Below the pieces are notes generated by a model. It was not told the DNA's origin and did no database searches. It saw nothing but the letters and a program-made list of their open reading frames with translations. Made by a program: the position numbers and the translations under genes. From NCBI RefSeq assembly GCF_040784935.1, contig NZ_CP160680.1, positions 6,491,802-6,555,801 of the forward strand: a DNA stretch of 64,000 nt, written 5' to 3'. Source of the stretch: Lewinella sp. LCG006 (GTDB taxonomy: Bacteria; Bacteroidota; Bacteroidia; Chitinophagales; Saprospiraceae). Below, one piece after another: positions 48,138 through 53,666 of the stretch (within the stretch, counting starts at the first letter, position 1; each line of letters starts with the position of its first letter).

Positions 48138-48388
48138 GGGGATCACGTAGTTCTTCAAGATGAAATACGTGCGCAATCCTTGCTGATGGGCTTCTTTTGT
48201 TTTCTTTGCTTTTTGTTTTGTGAATGAGGGAACGAAATTAGGGAATAGATAATCAATTGAAAAACGAGGAATTGGGAGGGGTGGAAGATGGGGGGATTCA
48301 ACGGTTTGGCTACGCGCCGTGCGACGAAGGAGCATGGACGTCATAGCCTGTATTGGGCACAGTTTCATATTCGTATAACAGTATTGAT

Positions 48389-49207
48389 TTAACCAAACAG
48401 TGACTGAAGGCTAGCTAAAACTGGCTCGGTCCAAGCATTACCTGCCACTCCTAACAATATGCCGTGTATAGTTTCCAAAGACTGCGAAATGATTGATTTC
48501 TTGGGCTCACTTTTCTTCAGTTGTAGCATCAATCTTTGTATCTCCACGAGCATATCTTCTTTTCCATCAAAATCATCCTTTGGCATTTCTTTATTGATGA
48601 TTTCTATAAATTCGGTAATCCTCCTAATATAGTCATCAGGATATTCTCCTTGCTGAATATTGACACCATAAGCAGAGTTGATCTGATTATTATCTCCAAT
48701 ATTTAAGGTAGAACCACTTCCTACGAAGTATGTCGAACTTCTAATCTTTTGACTTTCCTGTTCGCTTTTCCACTCAGTGAAAGAACCAAATTCGATTACC
48801 TCGTATCCTTTTCTTGTCAATACGTACATATTCTTTTCCTTGGAAACTAGCTCGATGGCTTCCATTTTTCTCAGTGCTATCAATTTTTCCGAGGCAATAT
48901 CCTTCGAAACTGCCATACTACCCTTTTGATTCATTTCATCCAATAACTGATCAATAATCGAACCCATAATTGATTTGGTTTTTAATAATTCAAATGTACT
49001 CACAATAAGTTCAAAATCTTCTCTATTTTCAAATACTTTATCTTTAGTCTCAATGACGGTTTCTTCATTGTTCCTAATCGAAAAAGAAGTAATCTCGCTT
49101 ACATCAATGTATACCTCTCTATCAGCTTCTTTTTGAAGCCCCTTCATTCGTAGTTCTAATAAACTTAATGGAGATTTTCGCCTAATTTTACCCTTAATAA
49201 CTTTCAT
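48389..49207 (-). CDS. Unknown protein with Gly/Asn motif, part of the defence-like island
   Basis: A 272-residue cytoplasmic protein. Residues about 80-155 look like a winged-helix domain (AVSKDIASEKLIALRKMEAI ... MYVLTRKGYEVIEFG). At about 170-192 lies STLNIGDNNQINSAYGVNIQ, which the small upstream protein (49226-49456) also carries. The C-terminal 80 residues are helical and end SLETIHGILLGVAGNAWTEP with a short hydrophobic tail. No family is recognised. It starts 18 bp after the small gene's stop, so the two form an operon. The pairing is discussed in the findings. Confidence 0.75.
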   Translation of the reverse strand: MKVIKGKIRRKSPLSLLELRMKGLQKEADREVYIDVSEITSFSIRNNEETVIETKDKVFENREDFELIVSTFELLKTKSIMGSIIDQLLDEMNQKGSMAVSKDIASEKLIALRKMEAIELVSKEKNMYVLTRKGYEVIEFGSFTEWKSEQESQKIRSSTYFVGSGSTLNIGDNNQINSAYGVNIQQGEYPDDYIRRITEFIEIINKEMPKDDFDGKEDMLVEIQRLMLQLKKSEPKKSIISQSLETIHGILLGVAGNAWTEPVLASLQSLFG

Positions 49208-49225
49208 TGTTAACCCTCTCCTTTA

Positions 49226-49456
49226 CTATTGTTTAATGTCTGTCCCATGTGCAGAATTTATATCATTACCATCCCCAATGTTTAAAGCTGCTCTATCACC
49301 CGTATTCATTACATTTATCTGCTTCATAACGAATGTGATGACTTGATTAACTTCTTCTTTTTCTTCAACCTTGAGACTTGATCCATCAGCGTTTTCTGGA
49401 AGCTTTTTCTCTAATTCAAGTAGTAGGTCTAAAAATTTACTACGAATCTCAGACAA
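49226..49456 (-). CDS. Small protein sharing the Gly/Asn motif
   Basis: 76 residues from a TTG at 49456; no ATG is available in frame, and the frame stays open upstream as far as the terminator. The first 50 residues are a helical, charged domain (FLDLLLELEKKLPENAD ... EVNQVITFVMKQINV). The end, AALNIGDGNDINSAHGTDIK, matches the motif of the next protein in LNIGDxNxINSAxGxxIxQ. The protein is nothing but helix plus motif, as expected for an adaptor or a signalling partner (inference). Confidence 0.65.
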   Translation of the reverse strand: MSEIRSKFLDLLLELEKKLPENADGSSLKVEEKEEVNQVITFVMKQINVMNTGDRAALNIGDGNDINSAHGTDIKQ

Positions 49457-49489
49457 AACTTGAGTTACGGAAATTTTATGCTTACCGAT

Positions 49490-49550
49490 AACAAAAAAGC
49501 CTCAACGCATGACCTCGCTACACTCCGTCAGGCGTTGAGGCTTTTTTGTT
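49490..49550. terminator. Strong bidirectional terminator-like inverted repeat
   Basis: A 19-bp perfect stem, aacaaaaaagcctcaacgc (49490-49508) and its complement (49532-49550), with a 23-nt loop. It separates the three upstream island genes from the two motif-sharing genes, so the latter probably have their own promoter, or are reached only by read-through. Confidence 0.85.
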
Positions 49551-49594
49551 GGGTACAGTTCATTAATCCTCAAAACAATATTCGAATCAGCTCC

Positions 49595-50077
49595 TTACCG
49601 TTTGAACCCGATAAGCGCTCTACTTTCCATCTCAAATGGCTTCATCATATCTAAGAACTTGACAACGTATTCCCTAATTTTGGATTCCGTAACATCACTG
49701 GGCTCAAGAAGGTCAATTTGAACATAAGATTCTTTACAATACGCAATTTCCTCGACATAAGGATTTTCAATCCAAACACTAATTTTTCCACTGAAAAGTT
49801 GTCCAAAGTGAAGAGCCCCTCCAATGTACATATAAGATCGTTTCTCCTCTATATTTACTATTCCACTTGGAAAGTTCTCCATTGACAGGTAAATAGACTC
49901 TCTATTTGTTAGCGTTTCATGCTTATCAACGTGCCATGGAAAATCATAGGAAGATACGATCCCTCTTAGGACATCATTAATCAACGCCTTTTTTCCATCT
50001 TTCCACAAAAGTCTTTTTTCTTCAATAATTTTCTGCGACTTCTTGAACGAGTCTATTTTTTCTTGGATTTGGTCCAT
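49595..50077 (-). CDS. Unknown protein in the defence-like island
   Basis: A 160-residue cytoplasmic protein. The N-terminal 40 residues are helical and charged (KIDSFKKSQKIIEEKRLLW); the rest is strand-rich (SYMYIGGALHFGQLFSGKISVWIENP). No catalytic motif and no family are recognised. It lies between the Mrr-type nuclease (182 bp upstream) and the terminator at 49490. Confidence 0.65.
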   Translation of the reverse strand: MDQIQEKIDSFKKSQKIIEEKRLLWKDGKKALINDVLRGIVSSYDFPWHVDKHETLTNRESIYLSMENFPSGIVNIEEKRSYMYIGGALHFGQLFSGKISVWIENPYVEEIAYCKESYVQIDLLEPSDVTESKIREYVVKFLDMMKPFEMESRALIGFKR

Positions 50078-50259
50078 GTTTTTATTCTTTAGAACAATCT
50101 CTAGTGCTTATAAAGTTTTAATTGAACTTGTAATTCAAATTCATTGACACCAAAAAAGTATATTAATCACCATTAGAAACGAGCCTTTTCCCAAGTTAAG
50201 GCAGGCAAAATTTTAACACTACTTTCGATAGCTCATAAGGTTGTATATAATACGTGTAA

Positions 50260-51093
50260 TCAATTCCCTAAACTCCTCATCAGTTTCTTCCATGGCCTTT
50301 CTTCCATGGCCTTATTAAGGTTCAAAATGTCAACAAACTTTGGAAAATCAATTAATTCTATAGCTTCCACAAAGTTATTCTTCAGAACTTTCATTTTCGC
50401 TGCATGTGCAAAGTTTGAATACTTCTTAGCTGTAGTGACGAAAATTGCTCTCTTGTTATTATTAATAGCCATTGCGCCGATCAGTTCTCTTATAGGCACC
50501 ACTCCCTCAGTTGAATTTGGTTTTGTTCTTCTTTTCACTTGAACTACTGTCGTTTCATTCTCTGAATCGATTAGCAGTAGATCAATTCCCCCATCATTAC
50601 TTTTCCCCACATGGACTACTTGACAATCTAAATGATCTTTCAGAATATCTCCCACTAACCTTTCAAAAACGGTTGGATTTACACCATATGCAATTTCTGG
50701 TCTTTTAGATAGCTCTCGTCGTAAGGTCTCGATTGGAAGTTCTTTACAGTCAACTGAATATTGTCTCAAAATCCCCAATACTCTTTCAGACTGAAACTGA
50801 CTTACACCTTCCCCTAGATATAATGATTCTTCACGACTTAAATACCACCATCCACATTTAGGACAATCATAAACAATAGTTGTATTGTCATACCCAAAAG
50901 TTCCTACATCCGGAACTTCCTTCACTGGAGTCTGAAGTTTTGTTTGACAAAACTTACATTTTTCATAGTGACTGTCGAAAAATTTATTTGTGATTTTTTC
51001 ATAGAGTGGACTCTCATGGTCACCAAAGAAATCATGATTAAATTCTGGAATATATCGTGAATAATCTAACAATATTGGTTTTATCTTACTCAT
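50260..51093 (-). CDS. Mrr-type restriction endonuclease with zinc ribbon
   Basis: 277 residues. N-terminal zinc ribbon with two CxxC pairs (CKFCQTKLQTP and YDCPKCGWWYL). C-terminal Mrr-cat domain of the PD-(D/E)XK fold: VFERLVGDILKDHLDCQVVH (helix with Glu), SNDGGIDLLLID (Asp) and TVVQVKRRTKPN (Q-x-K), then GAMAINNNKRAIFVTTAKKYS. Such proteins cut DNA, often modified or foreign, and occur in type IV restriction and other defence loci. A hairpin at 51161-51206 lies in front of it. No methyltransferase is present. Confidence 0.85.
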   Translation of the reverse strand: MSKIKPILLDYSRYIPEFNHDFFGDHESPLYEKITNKFFDSHYEKCKFCQTKLQTPVKEVPDVGTFGYDNTTIVYDCPKCGWWYLSREESLYLGEGVSQFQSERVLGILRQYSVDCKELPIETLRRELSKRPEIAYGVNPTVFERLVGDILKDHLDCQVVHVGKSNDGGIDLLLIDSENETTVVQVKRRTKPNSTEGVVPIRELIGAMAINNNKRAIFVTTAKKYSNFAHAAKMKVLKNNFVEAIELIDFPKFVDILNLNKAMEERPWKKLMRSLGN

Positions 51094-51160
51094 TTACCAA
51101 TCATTATACGATTACTTAAATATTAATACTTATTCTCTAATTGTGCCAACTCTGGCTTGA

Positions 51161-51206
51161 GCGCAGGCAGAGGAACGAGGCTTGTCGCACAAGCTTTGTT
51201 CTGCGC
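51161..51206. other. Hairpin between the two nuclease genes
   Basis: gaacgaggcttgt pairs with acaagctttgttc (with G-U pairs), and gcgca/tgcgc ends extend the stem. There is no T tail on either strand, so it is not a simple terminator. It may be a processing or protection site in the transcript, or a mobile palindrome. Confidence 0.45.
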
Positions 51207-51211
51207 ATTCA

Positions 51212-52507
51212 TTATATTTCTATTAGTCCAATTGAGTCATATAATAGATCAAATATATATTGCGAACTCCAATCACCAGCATGGTACCTTTTTAGTATTT
51301 CTAATAGAGATAAGGTAGTCATACAAGCCTGATCTTTCATCTTTACATATCTCATCATCTGATCAGGAAAATCAATTTGATTTCTTTCGTTAGGGGGGAC
51401 TTGAATGTGTGTTGCAACAATTAGAAGGCCTTGAGGAATGGTCTTTTGAGTATCATAAAATTCACTACTCCATTTTTCTAATTGGGTTGCAAAGCTCTCT
51501 TGAGCTGTGCCACGAACACCTTTTACTTCGCATACGATATATTTATCGTTTCGACTTATTATAAAGTCCACTCTGTTTTTTTCGGCACCTCTAGAAATTG
51601 TCAAACCCAAATAAGTGAAAATTGCTTCAATTGCACTTTCAAGTTGATCACCTGTTGAAGAAAGGATACTCTTAAATTGAGTCAACACTCTTAATCTTTC
51701 ATTGTAATTTCTCAATTTGTACTCGAGAGTGAGAATTTCGCTCTCAACTTCTTGAATAGATTTACGTATATCAGCCTCTTCTAATATTTGTATTTCTTCT
51801 ACCCACTCAGGAACAGTTTCAGATACATCTCTTCCTAGAGACCTTGAAAGATTTTTAGTAAATGATATGATTGAATCAGCTAATATCATTTGCTCTACCT
51901 GATCAGACTCTAATAAACTATCATTTATCTTAGGTAAATAGTAAATACGTCCTTTGTCAAAGAATTTAATTCCAGCAACGATTTCGTTGGAATTCCTGAT
52001 CTTCAAGAGAGGTATATCAACTTCATTCTTCCTTAAAGTGTATTCGTACTTGAAAAGTCTTGGCCTATCTAGCTTATTTAGTGCTACTTCCACTACTTCA
52101 CTACATGGCTCTATATTTATCCCTGAATTACTAAGTTTGGTCAATTGATGGCCTTCGGGTAATAAAGGTACTTTATTAATCCGCATGTATACTTGGCCAT
52201 CTTCATCCTCATCAACACTGTATGTTTCAGCTTGGCCAGTAACAAAAGCAACAATACTTTTTCCAGATTTAAGATGAGCTTCTACCTGTTTACTCTTAAT
52301 TCTGTATTCCTCATCTATTTGATCTTGATATCTCTGGTCATAAAAAGCCTCTATTGGAACTGCTATATCAGATAAATCAATAAAAACTAAATCTGCATCA
52401 ATCAAGGAATCTGACGAACTGATGTCCTGTATTGTATATCCAAAGTCATGATTAATAAGCTTATTAAAAGGCCCCTTAATCTGGATTATTGTTCGTATTT
52501 CAGACAT
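51212..52507 (-). CDS. Coiled-coil protein with PD-(D/E)XK nuclease-like C-terminal domain
   Basis: 431 residues from the ATG at 52507, which lies 24 bp after a good -7 element; an in-frame ATG at 52564 is upstream of the promoter. Three parts: an N-terminal alpha/beta domain (about 1-95; DADLVFIDLSDIAVP, GKSIVAFVTGQAE) with a sensor look; a long coiled coil (EVESEILTLEYKLRNYNERL); a nuclease-like fold (QLESAIEAIFTYLGLTISRG, RVDFIISRNDKYIVCEVKG: Glu, Asp and E-x-K). It is the first gene of the island and may sense something and activate a nuclease. Not a named family to me. Confidence 0.75.
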   Translation of the reverse strand: MSEIRTIIQIKGPFNKLINHDFGYTIQDISSSDSLIDADLVFIDLSDIAVPIEAFYDQRYQDQIDEEYRIKSKQVEAHLKSGKSIVAFVTGQAETYSVDEDEDGQVYMRINKVPLLPEGHQLTKLSNSGINIEPCSEVVEVALNKLDRPRLFKYEYTLRKNEVDIPLLKIRNSNEIVAGIKFFDKGRIYYLPKINDSLLESDQVEQMILADSIISFTKNLSRSLGRDVSETVPEWVEEIQILEEADIRKSIQEVESEILTLEYKLRNYNERLRVLTQFKSILSSTGDQLESAIEAIFTYLGLTISRGAEKNRVDFIISRNDKYIVCEVKGVRGTAQESFATQLEKWSSEFYDTQKTIPQGLLIVATHIQVPPNERNQIDFPDQMMRYVKMKDQACMTTLSLLEILKRYHAGDWSSQYIFDLLYDSIGLIEI

Positions 52508-52530
52508 CCTTTTATTAGTTGATACATATA

Positions 52531-52564
52531 CAAAAATAGCTAATATACATTTCGAATTCAACAA
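52531..52564 (-). promoter_or_regulatory. Promoter of the defence-like island
   Basis: Minus strand: TTG (about 52559-52564), 20-bp spacer, TATTTTTG (52531-52538), a full TAnnTTTG match. Predicted start near 52527. The 260 bp beyond (52565-52827) show no feature. Confidence 0.5.
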
Positions 52565-52827
52565 TAAGGACTGTCTCTTCGATAATTAAAGTTGCGCAGA
52601 ACTTACTCATATACAAACAAAATACCCCTTTTGACGTACTTTTACAAAAAGAGAAATCATCAAAAGAGTTACGATGCTTTGCAAGGTTGGTCGGCTCACT
52701 TGAGTATTACGGTAGTCTTGTCCAAAAGTTCTTGAATGACATATTTATTTGGTGCTAGGCCCAAGCACATCCGATTTCCGCCCTTCCTCCTCTCACTTTT
52801 GGTGCGTATTTTTTTTACGGGTTATAG

Positions 52828-53058
52828 CTAAGAGGGCATTTCTCCTTCCCCCCTATCATCCCCACACTCCCCCATCACCTCATAATCCCCATTCAAATAA
52901 AAGTCCAAGTCCGTCGCATTTTGCTCGTAAAACTCATCTGCGGGAATACCATCAATGACATACACCCTACGGAATTTCATTTTTCCACCCACGAAGTAGA
53001 GTTCCTTGATAAATTCGCGTCCTTTTTTATCGCTATGAATCTTTTTCTTGTTTTTCAA
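52828..53058 (-). CDS. Small unknown protein
   Basis: 76 residues: a basic N terminus (MKNKKKIHSDKKGREF), then FVGGKMKFRRVYVIDGIPADEFY, which reads as a small beta-hairpin domain, then an acidic tail (CGDDRGEGEMPS). No signal. The composition looks like real protein, but I cannot assign a family, and there is no operon partner. Confidence 0.5.
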   Translation of the reverse strand: MKNKKKIHSDKKGREFIKELYFVGGKMKFRRVYVIDGIPADEFYEQNATDLDFYLNGDYEVMGECGDDRGEGEMPS

Positions 53059-53073
53059 TTATCTGTGATTTAT

Positions 53074-53235
53074 TAGAGTTGTTATGCTGGGACAAGTTTT
53101 GCTGCAAGCGGAAAATTTCATCCTGAACTTCGTTAGATTTTTCGCCGAATTGCCCGCATTCGGCTGCAAAATCTGTCTCGTTCAGAATAAAATTTTATCG
53201 CTTTCGCTAAAACAGCCCCCAGCAGAACAACTCTA
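53074..53235. repeat. Foldback (MITE-like) element, copy 2
   Basis: 162 bp bounded by tagagttgttatgctggg (53074-53091) and the complement of tagagttgttctgctggg (53218-53235), 17 of 18 paired. The whole unit folds back on itself: ctgaac, agatttt and gccgaat on the left pair in order with attcggc, aaaatct and gttcag on the right, with an apical stem GCCGAAT/ATTCGGC. Termini and length match copy 1 (1174-1337). It ends in TA on both sides. Confidence 0.7.
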
Positions 53236-53258
53236 TTAGAAAGTACAGCTTGGAATTC

Positions 53259-53366
53259 TTTGTTATATATAAAATTTTTATATCTTAGCAAAGTCTTAGT
53301 GCTTCAACCTTTTTTAATCCCATGAACATGTCAGGAAGCCGGCTCATTTGGGTCGGCTTCTTTGTT
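53259..53366 (+). ncRNA. Possible small RNA with its own promoter and terminator
   Basis: TTTG (53259-53262), 18-bp spacer and tatcttag (53281-53288, five of six TAnnTTTG bases) could start a transcript near 53294. A stem gaagccg (53335-53341) / cggcttc (53354-53360) with a T-rich tail would end it at about 53366. The roughly 70-nt product has no ORF of note. There is no upstream gene on this strand to need the terminator. Speculative. Confidence 0.3.
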
Positions 53367-53390
53367 TTTGGAGAAGTCCTATGAGGTATC

Positions 53391-53636
53391 TGCCGCGGAG
53401 GCGCGGAGGTACGGCGTTTTTTTTTAGCCACGAAGGCACTAAAACACAAAATAGCACAGAATATTTTTTGTGTACTTTGGTGTTTTTGAGCTTTAGTGGC
53501 TATTCCTGTTACATTCCGTAAACATATGAGATACGGTCCCGACTAGTAAGTTGGGATTATGGAATTCCTCTAAAAATCTCTGCGCCTCCGCGCCCCTGCC
53601 TGCAAGGCCAGCTTGCTGGCAGGCAGGTCCGCGGCA
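53391..53636. repeat. Nested inverted repeats around a tagccac/gtggcta core
   Basis: The outer left arm tgccgcggaggcgcggaggt (53391-53410) pairs with a right arm split in two: cctccgcgcc (53585-53594) and tccgcggca (53628-53636). Between the two halves lies the 33-bp palindrome 53595-53627. An inner inverted repeat (tagccac at 53425, gtggcta ending 53502, with aacacaaaa/ttttgtgt) sits in the middle. Confidence 0.65.
53595..53627. repeat. 33-bp REP-like palindrome
   Basis: Arms cctgcctgc and gcaggcagg enclose a second small hairpin, ccag-cttg-ctgg. It interrupts the right arm of the surrounding inverted repeat without loss or duplication of bases. The same arms surround the IS element at 25113/26701. 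Confidence 0.75.
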
Positions 53637-53666
53637 AATTATTTTTCAAAGTGAGAACTACTATAC

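Follow-up and report, generated by a model that had tools for sequence, protein, structure and literature searches.

Why do two neighbouring reading frames of Lewinella sp. LCG006 carry the same short Gly/Asn motif, and to what kind of system do they belong? The frames lie on the minus strand of a 64,000-nt stretch of contig NZ_CP160680.1, referred to here as the window. One encodes a 272-aa protein (48389..49207) and the other, situated upstream of it on the same strand with 18 nt between them, is a 76-aa ORF (49226..49456). Both ORFs were present as reported in a preliminary description, as was the motif common to them, of which copy 1 (GSGSTLNIGDNNQINSAYGVNIQQ; 48650..48721, minus strand) occupies residues 163-186 of the 272-aa protein, with a winged helix before it and a helical tail after it, and copy 2 (GDRAALNIGDGNDINSAHGTDIKQ; 49229..49300, minus strand) the last 24 residues of the 76-aa ORF. 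The two copies align without gaps, with 14 of 24 residues identical, and their local alignment score of 74 exceeds the maximum of 62 obtained from 5000 composition shuffles of both proteins, a Gumbel fit to the shuffle scores giving a p value of about 3e-5. Seven of the 14 identical residues are specified by different codons, so the motif is not a recent DNA duplication, and its residue identity has outlived synonymous divergence. A regular expression derived from the motif had no matches in the 41,030 residues of window ORFs apart from these two, and in 558,000 residues of ORFs from the loci retrieved it matched the window pair, the Bacillota pairs described below, and nothing else; having been built post hoc from the matched sequences, it shows specificity and is not an independent test.

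The pair is part of a low-GC inserted island of 5.5 kb (48138..53666), located between genes for a LytTR regulator and a carboxylase and absent from two congeners, in which these flanking genes are 224 and 112 nt apart. The G+C content is 34-36% in the island versus 44-52% outside it. As context only, a neighbouring island gene encodes an Mrr-type restriction endonuclease (50260..51093, minus strand; Pfam Mrr_cat, E 1.2e-17). A 450-aa island protein (51212-52564) gave no profile match and has a C-terminus that reads as nuclease-like, of PD-(D/E)XK type, and a 160-aa ORF had no family matches. No NLR domain (NB-ARC or NACHT) was found among the island proteins with Pfam. We identify this region as an acquired defence-type island. 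In a congener, the carboxylase gene occupies two overlapping frames (G953:C8:69523-71086; L061, L062), the frameshift being either real decay or an assembly error.

A truncated AbiTii gene

The small protein was initially taken for a bare carrier of the motif; AbiTii profile homology instead identifies it as the product of a 5'-truncated AbiTii gene that ends with the motif. The open frame comprises 91 codons and contains no ATG, the annotated start being a TTG, and no clear ribosome site was seen. The first residues of the ORF show a weak resemblance, short of the curated cut-off, to the final portion of the Pfam AbiTii model PF18864, and in a search of the whole genome with this model the site of the 76-aa ORF was the sole match (positions 142-187 of 189, E 1.9e-4). 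A profile built from 42 AbiTii proteins aligned frame residues 11-84 with its positions 151-219, through the motif, at 35 bits; the AbiTii-homologous remnant (49301..49471, minus strand) begins five codons upstream of the TTG. There the homology ends abruptly beside an inverted repeat (hairpin) with A and T runs at its flanks (49499..49541), which is positioned directly upstream of the truncated frame and is a probable terminator at the truncation junction. Further AbiTii pieces were not detected, either upstream in all three frames of the minus strand or in the remainder of the genome; the pair is rare, this genome having a single AbiTii copy and the two congeners none. The AbiTii signature W-x3-E-[LI]-x-G-[YF] ... 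P-x-Y-R, present in intact analogues, is absent from both the window and the genome.

Because the AbiTii homology begins upstream of the TTG, no ATG is available, the hairpin adjoins the frame, and no upstream piece exists, we assign the 76-aa ORF as a truncated gene for the C-terminal end of an abortive-infection protein, AbiTii, which by profile alignment has lost about 150 N-terminal residues. The sensor gene in the window is probably dead. A natural bare-motif peptide is ruled out by the homology upstream of the TTG and its abrupt stop beside the hairpin, and a frameshifted, otherwise complete AbiTii gene by the lack of any AbiTii match upstream or genome-wide. The whole hairpin is single-copy in the window and its core is found once more in the genome; a hairpin repeat family as the mover of the gene was unsupported, the core occurring just twice. 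Another decayed copy resides on a Vibrio plasmid (L134, 2480-3275), where the AbiTii gene is broken after about 65 residues.

These features bear on a toxin-antitoxin arrangement, in which the product of the small ORF would bind the motif of the 272-aa protein and so keep that protein inactive. The adjacency of the genes and a small protein comprising little beyond the motif suit this arrangement, as does the toxicity in E. coli of one AbiTi homologue, that of C. catus (PMC3985639). However, the small ORF is a truncated AbiTii gene with neither an ATG nor a clear ribosome site, and the C. catus AbiTi is not neutralised by its AbiTii (PMC3985639); we therefore consider a toxin-antitoxin pair very improbable. 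Toxicity that AbiTii does not rescue fits an effector with a sensor better than a toxin with an antitoxin. Counting against the effector-sensor explanation, the AbiT proteins of L. lactis, AbiTi included, are not toxic in E. coli (PMC3985639).

The AbiTi-like tail of the 272-aa protein

The 272-aa protein comprises an N-terminal alpha/beta region, a winged-helix region (residues 80-138; 48794..48970, minus strand), the motif, and a putative AbiTi-like effector tail of four helices (residues 188-272; 48392..48646, minus strand). The winged helix is indicated by a weak, below-cut-off match to Pfam HTH_45 (E 0.004) and by model helices of modest confidence. In the AlphaFold2 model, calculated from 10 sequences and poor in its N-terminal half, the four helices of the tail have a pLDDT of about 90, and residues 139-187, a stretch that includes motif copy 1, are at 27-44. 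For an AbiTii-motif-tail relative modelled with 42 sequences, the mean pLDDT was 88.5 and the sole stretch below 50 was residues 206-220, within the motif. Judged from monomer predictions, the motif would be disordered and not part of a confidently folded domain; the ordinary folded domain that the preliminary description had set against its own proposal was seen in neither model. No solved-structure relative of the tail or of AbiTii was found by sequence or fold comparison, and profile matches to designed armadillo and Pizza proteins were rejected as low-complexity matches.

Residues 166-269 of the 272-aa protein share 38% identity with the C-terminal part of a Bacteroidota AbiTii-motif-tail protein. 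A profile of the tail (A2) also detects winged-helix-motif-tail proteins (L004, L037, and L038), as well as a protein with the tail behind an unrelated N-domain (L036), and in Agrobacterium tail relatives are found behind yet another N-domain. The PADLOC model of AbiTi, which together with AbiTii makes up the Lactococcus AbiT system, gave no significant match to the 272-aa protein itself and matched the motif and tail part of several relatives (L040, E 3e-13, and L029, 6e-8, with exactly these parts covered; L004, 7e-4). From these homologies we equate the tail with the effector tail found in AbiTii-motif-tail proteins and with the module that PADLOC calls AbiTi; given the PADLOC matches in relatives, motif and tail together represent the AbiTi module, which occurs by itself and also in fusions, either with AbiTii or with other domains. 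Residues 163-254 additionally match the PADLOC candidate PDC-M14B (E 1.5e-5), the C-terminal half of which corresponds to the motif and tail of the 272-aa protein and of other winged-helix relatives; PDC-M14B differs in being only a candidate system and in having an N-terminal half that is unmatched. Homology between tail types A and B is suggestive only, with an hhalign probability of 23%. The winged-helix-motif-tail genes of two Bacteroidota (L037, 1450-2097; L038, 1456-2154) each adjoin a DNA-methyltransferase-like gene, the same 414-aa one in both, in what may be a further defence pairing.

Motif matching within paired loci

Pairs were recovered in Hymenobacter, Nostoc, other Bacteroidota, and Bacillota prophages, so the pairing, the conservation of which had been in question, recurs well outside the window, there with AbiTii intact. 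On a Hymenobacter plasmid, a 355-aa winged-helix-motif-tail protein is followed after 9 nt by a 241-aa AbiTii ending in the motif (WP_245117573 and WP_245117575), and 16 of 27 residues are identical between their motif copies. On a Nostoc plasmid, an AbiTii-motif-tail protein adjoins a winged-helix-motif protein. Three Bacteroidota genomes encode a tail-bearing AbiTii paired with a tail-less AbiTii ending in the motif, including one in which a third, unrelated 359-aa protein also has the motif at its end, and on one prophage-like contig three AbiTii genes stand in tandem, of which one lacks the tail. On five Bacillota contigs (prophages), a tail-less AbiTii of 227-245 aa that ends in the motif is followed by a small, overlapping gene whose product has the motif first and then a hydrophobic transmembrane (TM) helix with a hydropathy of 2.6-2.9 (for example IKIGDGNKINKSSIGHQ); these partners carry nearly the same motif as their AbiTii neighbour (IGDGNKINKSSIGHQ). 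The commonest form combines sensor and effector in one chain (AbiTii-motif-effector), AbiTii and motif being joined to tail A, tail B, or a clostridial tail. The motif rule is not universal, since an Enterococcus AbiTii pair has no shared motif.

A TM helix is clear in the Bacillota partners and the window tail is weakly hydrophobic, with a maximum Kyte-Doolittle value of 1.12 and no clear TM segment. A C-terminal TM helix also stands in place of the helical tail of an AbiTii protein at two loci, clearly at one (L105, 9558-10388) and probably, as a borderline case, at the other (L082, 2199-3086). Viral scans with the 272-aa protein and both Hymenobacter proteins found nothing, and neither the L029 AbiTii protein nor the small TM effector had a relative among the phage records. 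Several AbiTii genes have defence-related neighbours: on the Nostoc plasmid pANSO36C (L032) the AbiTii/winged-helix pair comes immediately after DUF87 (HerA-like) and NurA-like genes, which points to a larger defence operon; on L. lactis and E. coli plasmids AbiTii genes are near TIR-domain genes, and on a Rhizobium plasmid near a CBASS cyclase gene (L063, 1566-2243; L132, 278-1141; L135, 5563-5879); and an HNH-CTD10 (ABC-3C) protein is encoded beside a tandem AbiTii pair in genome G332 (L010, 2317-3138).

For five pairs with unrelated other domains, the true within-locus assignment of motifs was the best of 120 permutations, with mean motif scores of 65 within loci versus 29 between loci. With three pairs added, two of 40,320 assignments were as good, the true one included, in a test comprising only eight pairs with motif windows chosen by eye. 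In these alignments the motifs match within loci and not between them, despite unrelated flanking domains, which is what specific recognition between motif copies predicts. Were the motif instead a flexible Gly/Asn/Ser linker of folded domains without any part in signalling, both copies would go back to an AbiTii-linker-tail ancestor by domain shuffling, in keeping with its position between AbiTii and tail in most family members and with its disorder in the monomer models. However, the motif is C-terminal in tail-less partners and N-terminal in TM partners, leaving nothing to link, residue identity has been kept though half the codons changed, and proteins with unrelated other domains resemble each other in the motif in a locus-specific way; a linker is in our judgement distinctly unlikely. 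As a further alternative, the motif could be a short element that oligomerises without forming amyloid, for instance as a trimeric beta-helix or stacked beta-roll, and keeps sensor and effector in one constitutive complex. The short hydrophobic triplets between Gly/Asn turns would fit such an element, and the Hymenobacter and L028 copies resemble repeats of about 10 residues, but no structure match was found, and we regard this alternative as possible though doubtful.

Relation to abortive infection and amyloid signalling

The reading that we favour, and hold to be somewhat probable, is that the window pair is a decayed AbiT-type abortive-infection module, in which an AbiTii sensor and a membrane-acting effector were joined by a homotypic assembly motif. 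In intact relatives, the AbiTii domain, a probable phage sensor, would end in the short Gly/Asn motif, and the second protein would combine a locus-matched motif with an effector, either an AbiTi-like four-helix tail or a plain TM helix. Disordered at rest, the motif copies of the sensor would probably cluster upon infection and template or co-assemble with the effector copies via stacked beta-arches, and this co-assembly would oligomerise the effector tail at the membrane and stop the cell before phage release. In single-chain fusions of sensor and effector, the one motif copy would be used for self-assembly. TM helices replace the tail in some relatives, from which we infer a membrane site of action for the tail or TM part, with the motif providing the connection between sensor and effector. 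In the window, the tail partner has a winged-helix domain instead and the sensor part of the AbiTii gene is missing. As a result, the module has probably become inactive or dwindled to a motif peptide, and phage protection has probably been lost.

The locus resembles AbiT (AbiTi/AbiTii) in its AbiTii domain, in a motif and tail that in relatives correspond to the AbiTi profile, in its two adjacent, co-oriented genes, and in its mobile-element setting; the AbiTi-like module of the window partner is recognised through the homology of its tail to AbiTii-motif-tail proteins. Unlike AbiT, the window has a truncated AbiTii and an AbiTi-like module extended by a winged-helix part. No description of a shared motif in AbiT was found in the literature searched. 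With BASS pairs, composed of a Bell-domain effector and an NLR (PMC7889193, PMC8086366), the window and its relatives have in common adjacent genes, a short, locus-matched motif on sensor and effector, and, in the relatives with TM helices, an effector predicted to be membrane-active; unlike BASS, they have no NLR, the sensor being AbiTii and the effector an AbiTi tail or a TM helix. The proposed logic is also that of the fungal NWD2/HET-S system (PMC4344463, PMC3531502), where the motif on a sensor acts as template for that of a pore-forming effector from the adjacent gene.

The suggestion that the pair represents amyloid or effector-associated signalling stands in part; the preliminary description had identified neither the AbiT family, nor the effector tail, nor the island as an insertion. 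The expected architecture was found, namely conserved pairs, locus-matched motifs, a motif unfolded in the monomer models, and TM partners in relatives, but there is no NLR/STAND protein, and neither window protein matched a Pfam amyloid-motif model at E<=1. Joining of the motifs by amyloid templating may occur by analogy with these systems. That the module works like BASS or NWD2/HET-S is tenable as an analogy; that it is a BASS system is not, because of the missing NLR and Pfam amyloid-motif match. More broadly, and tentatively, AbiT-type defences of Bacteroidota, Cyanobacteriota, and Bacillota, along with fused Pseudomonadota forms, could use an NLR-independent, amyloid-like motif, with AbiTii sensors templating co-evolving motifs on exchangeable membrane effectors and a mobile cassette of motif and tail having been attached to several sensor domains.

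AbiT itself has been known since 2002 (Bouchard 2002, as cited in PMC3985639), and no established mechanism for it was found in the literature searched. Neither the motif match between sensor and effector nor the distribution of the motif across exchangeable domains appears to have been described in that literature, of which coverage was partial. A matched motif on sensor and effector would offer a testable mechanism for AbiT. Whether bacteria have signalling amyloids in NLR-independent pathways is a question posed in a 2021 review (PMC7889193), and the pairs reported here are concrete candidates, from several phyla, for such NLR-independent signalling amyloids.
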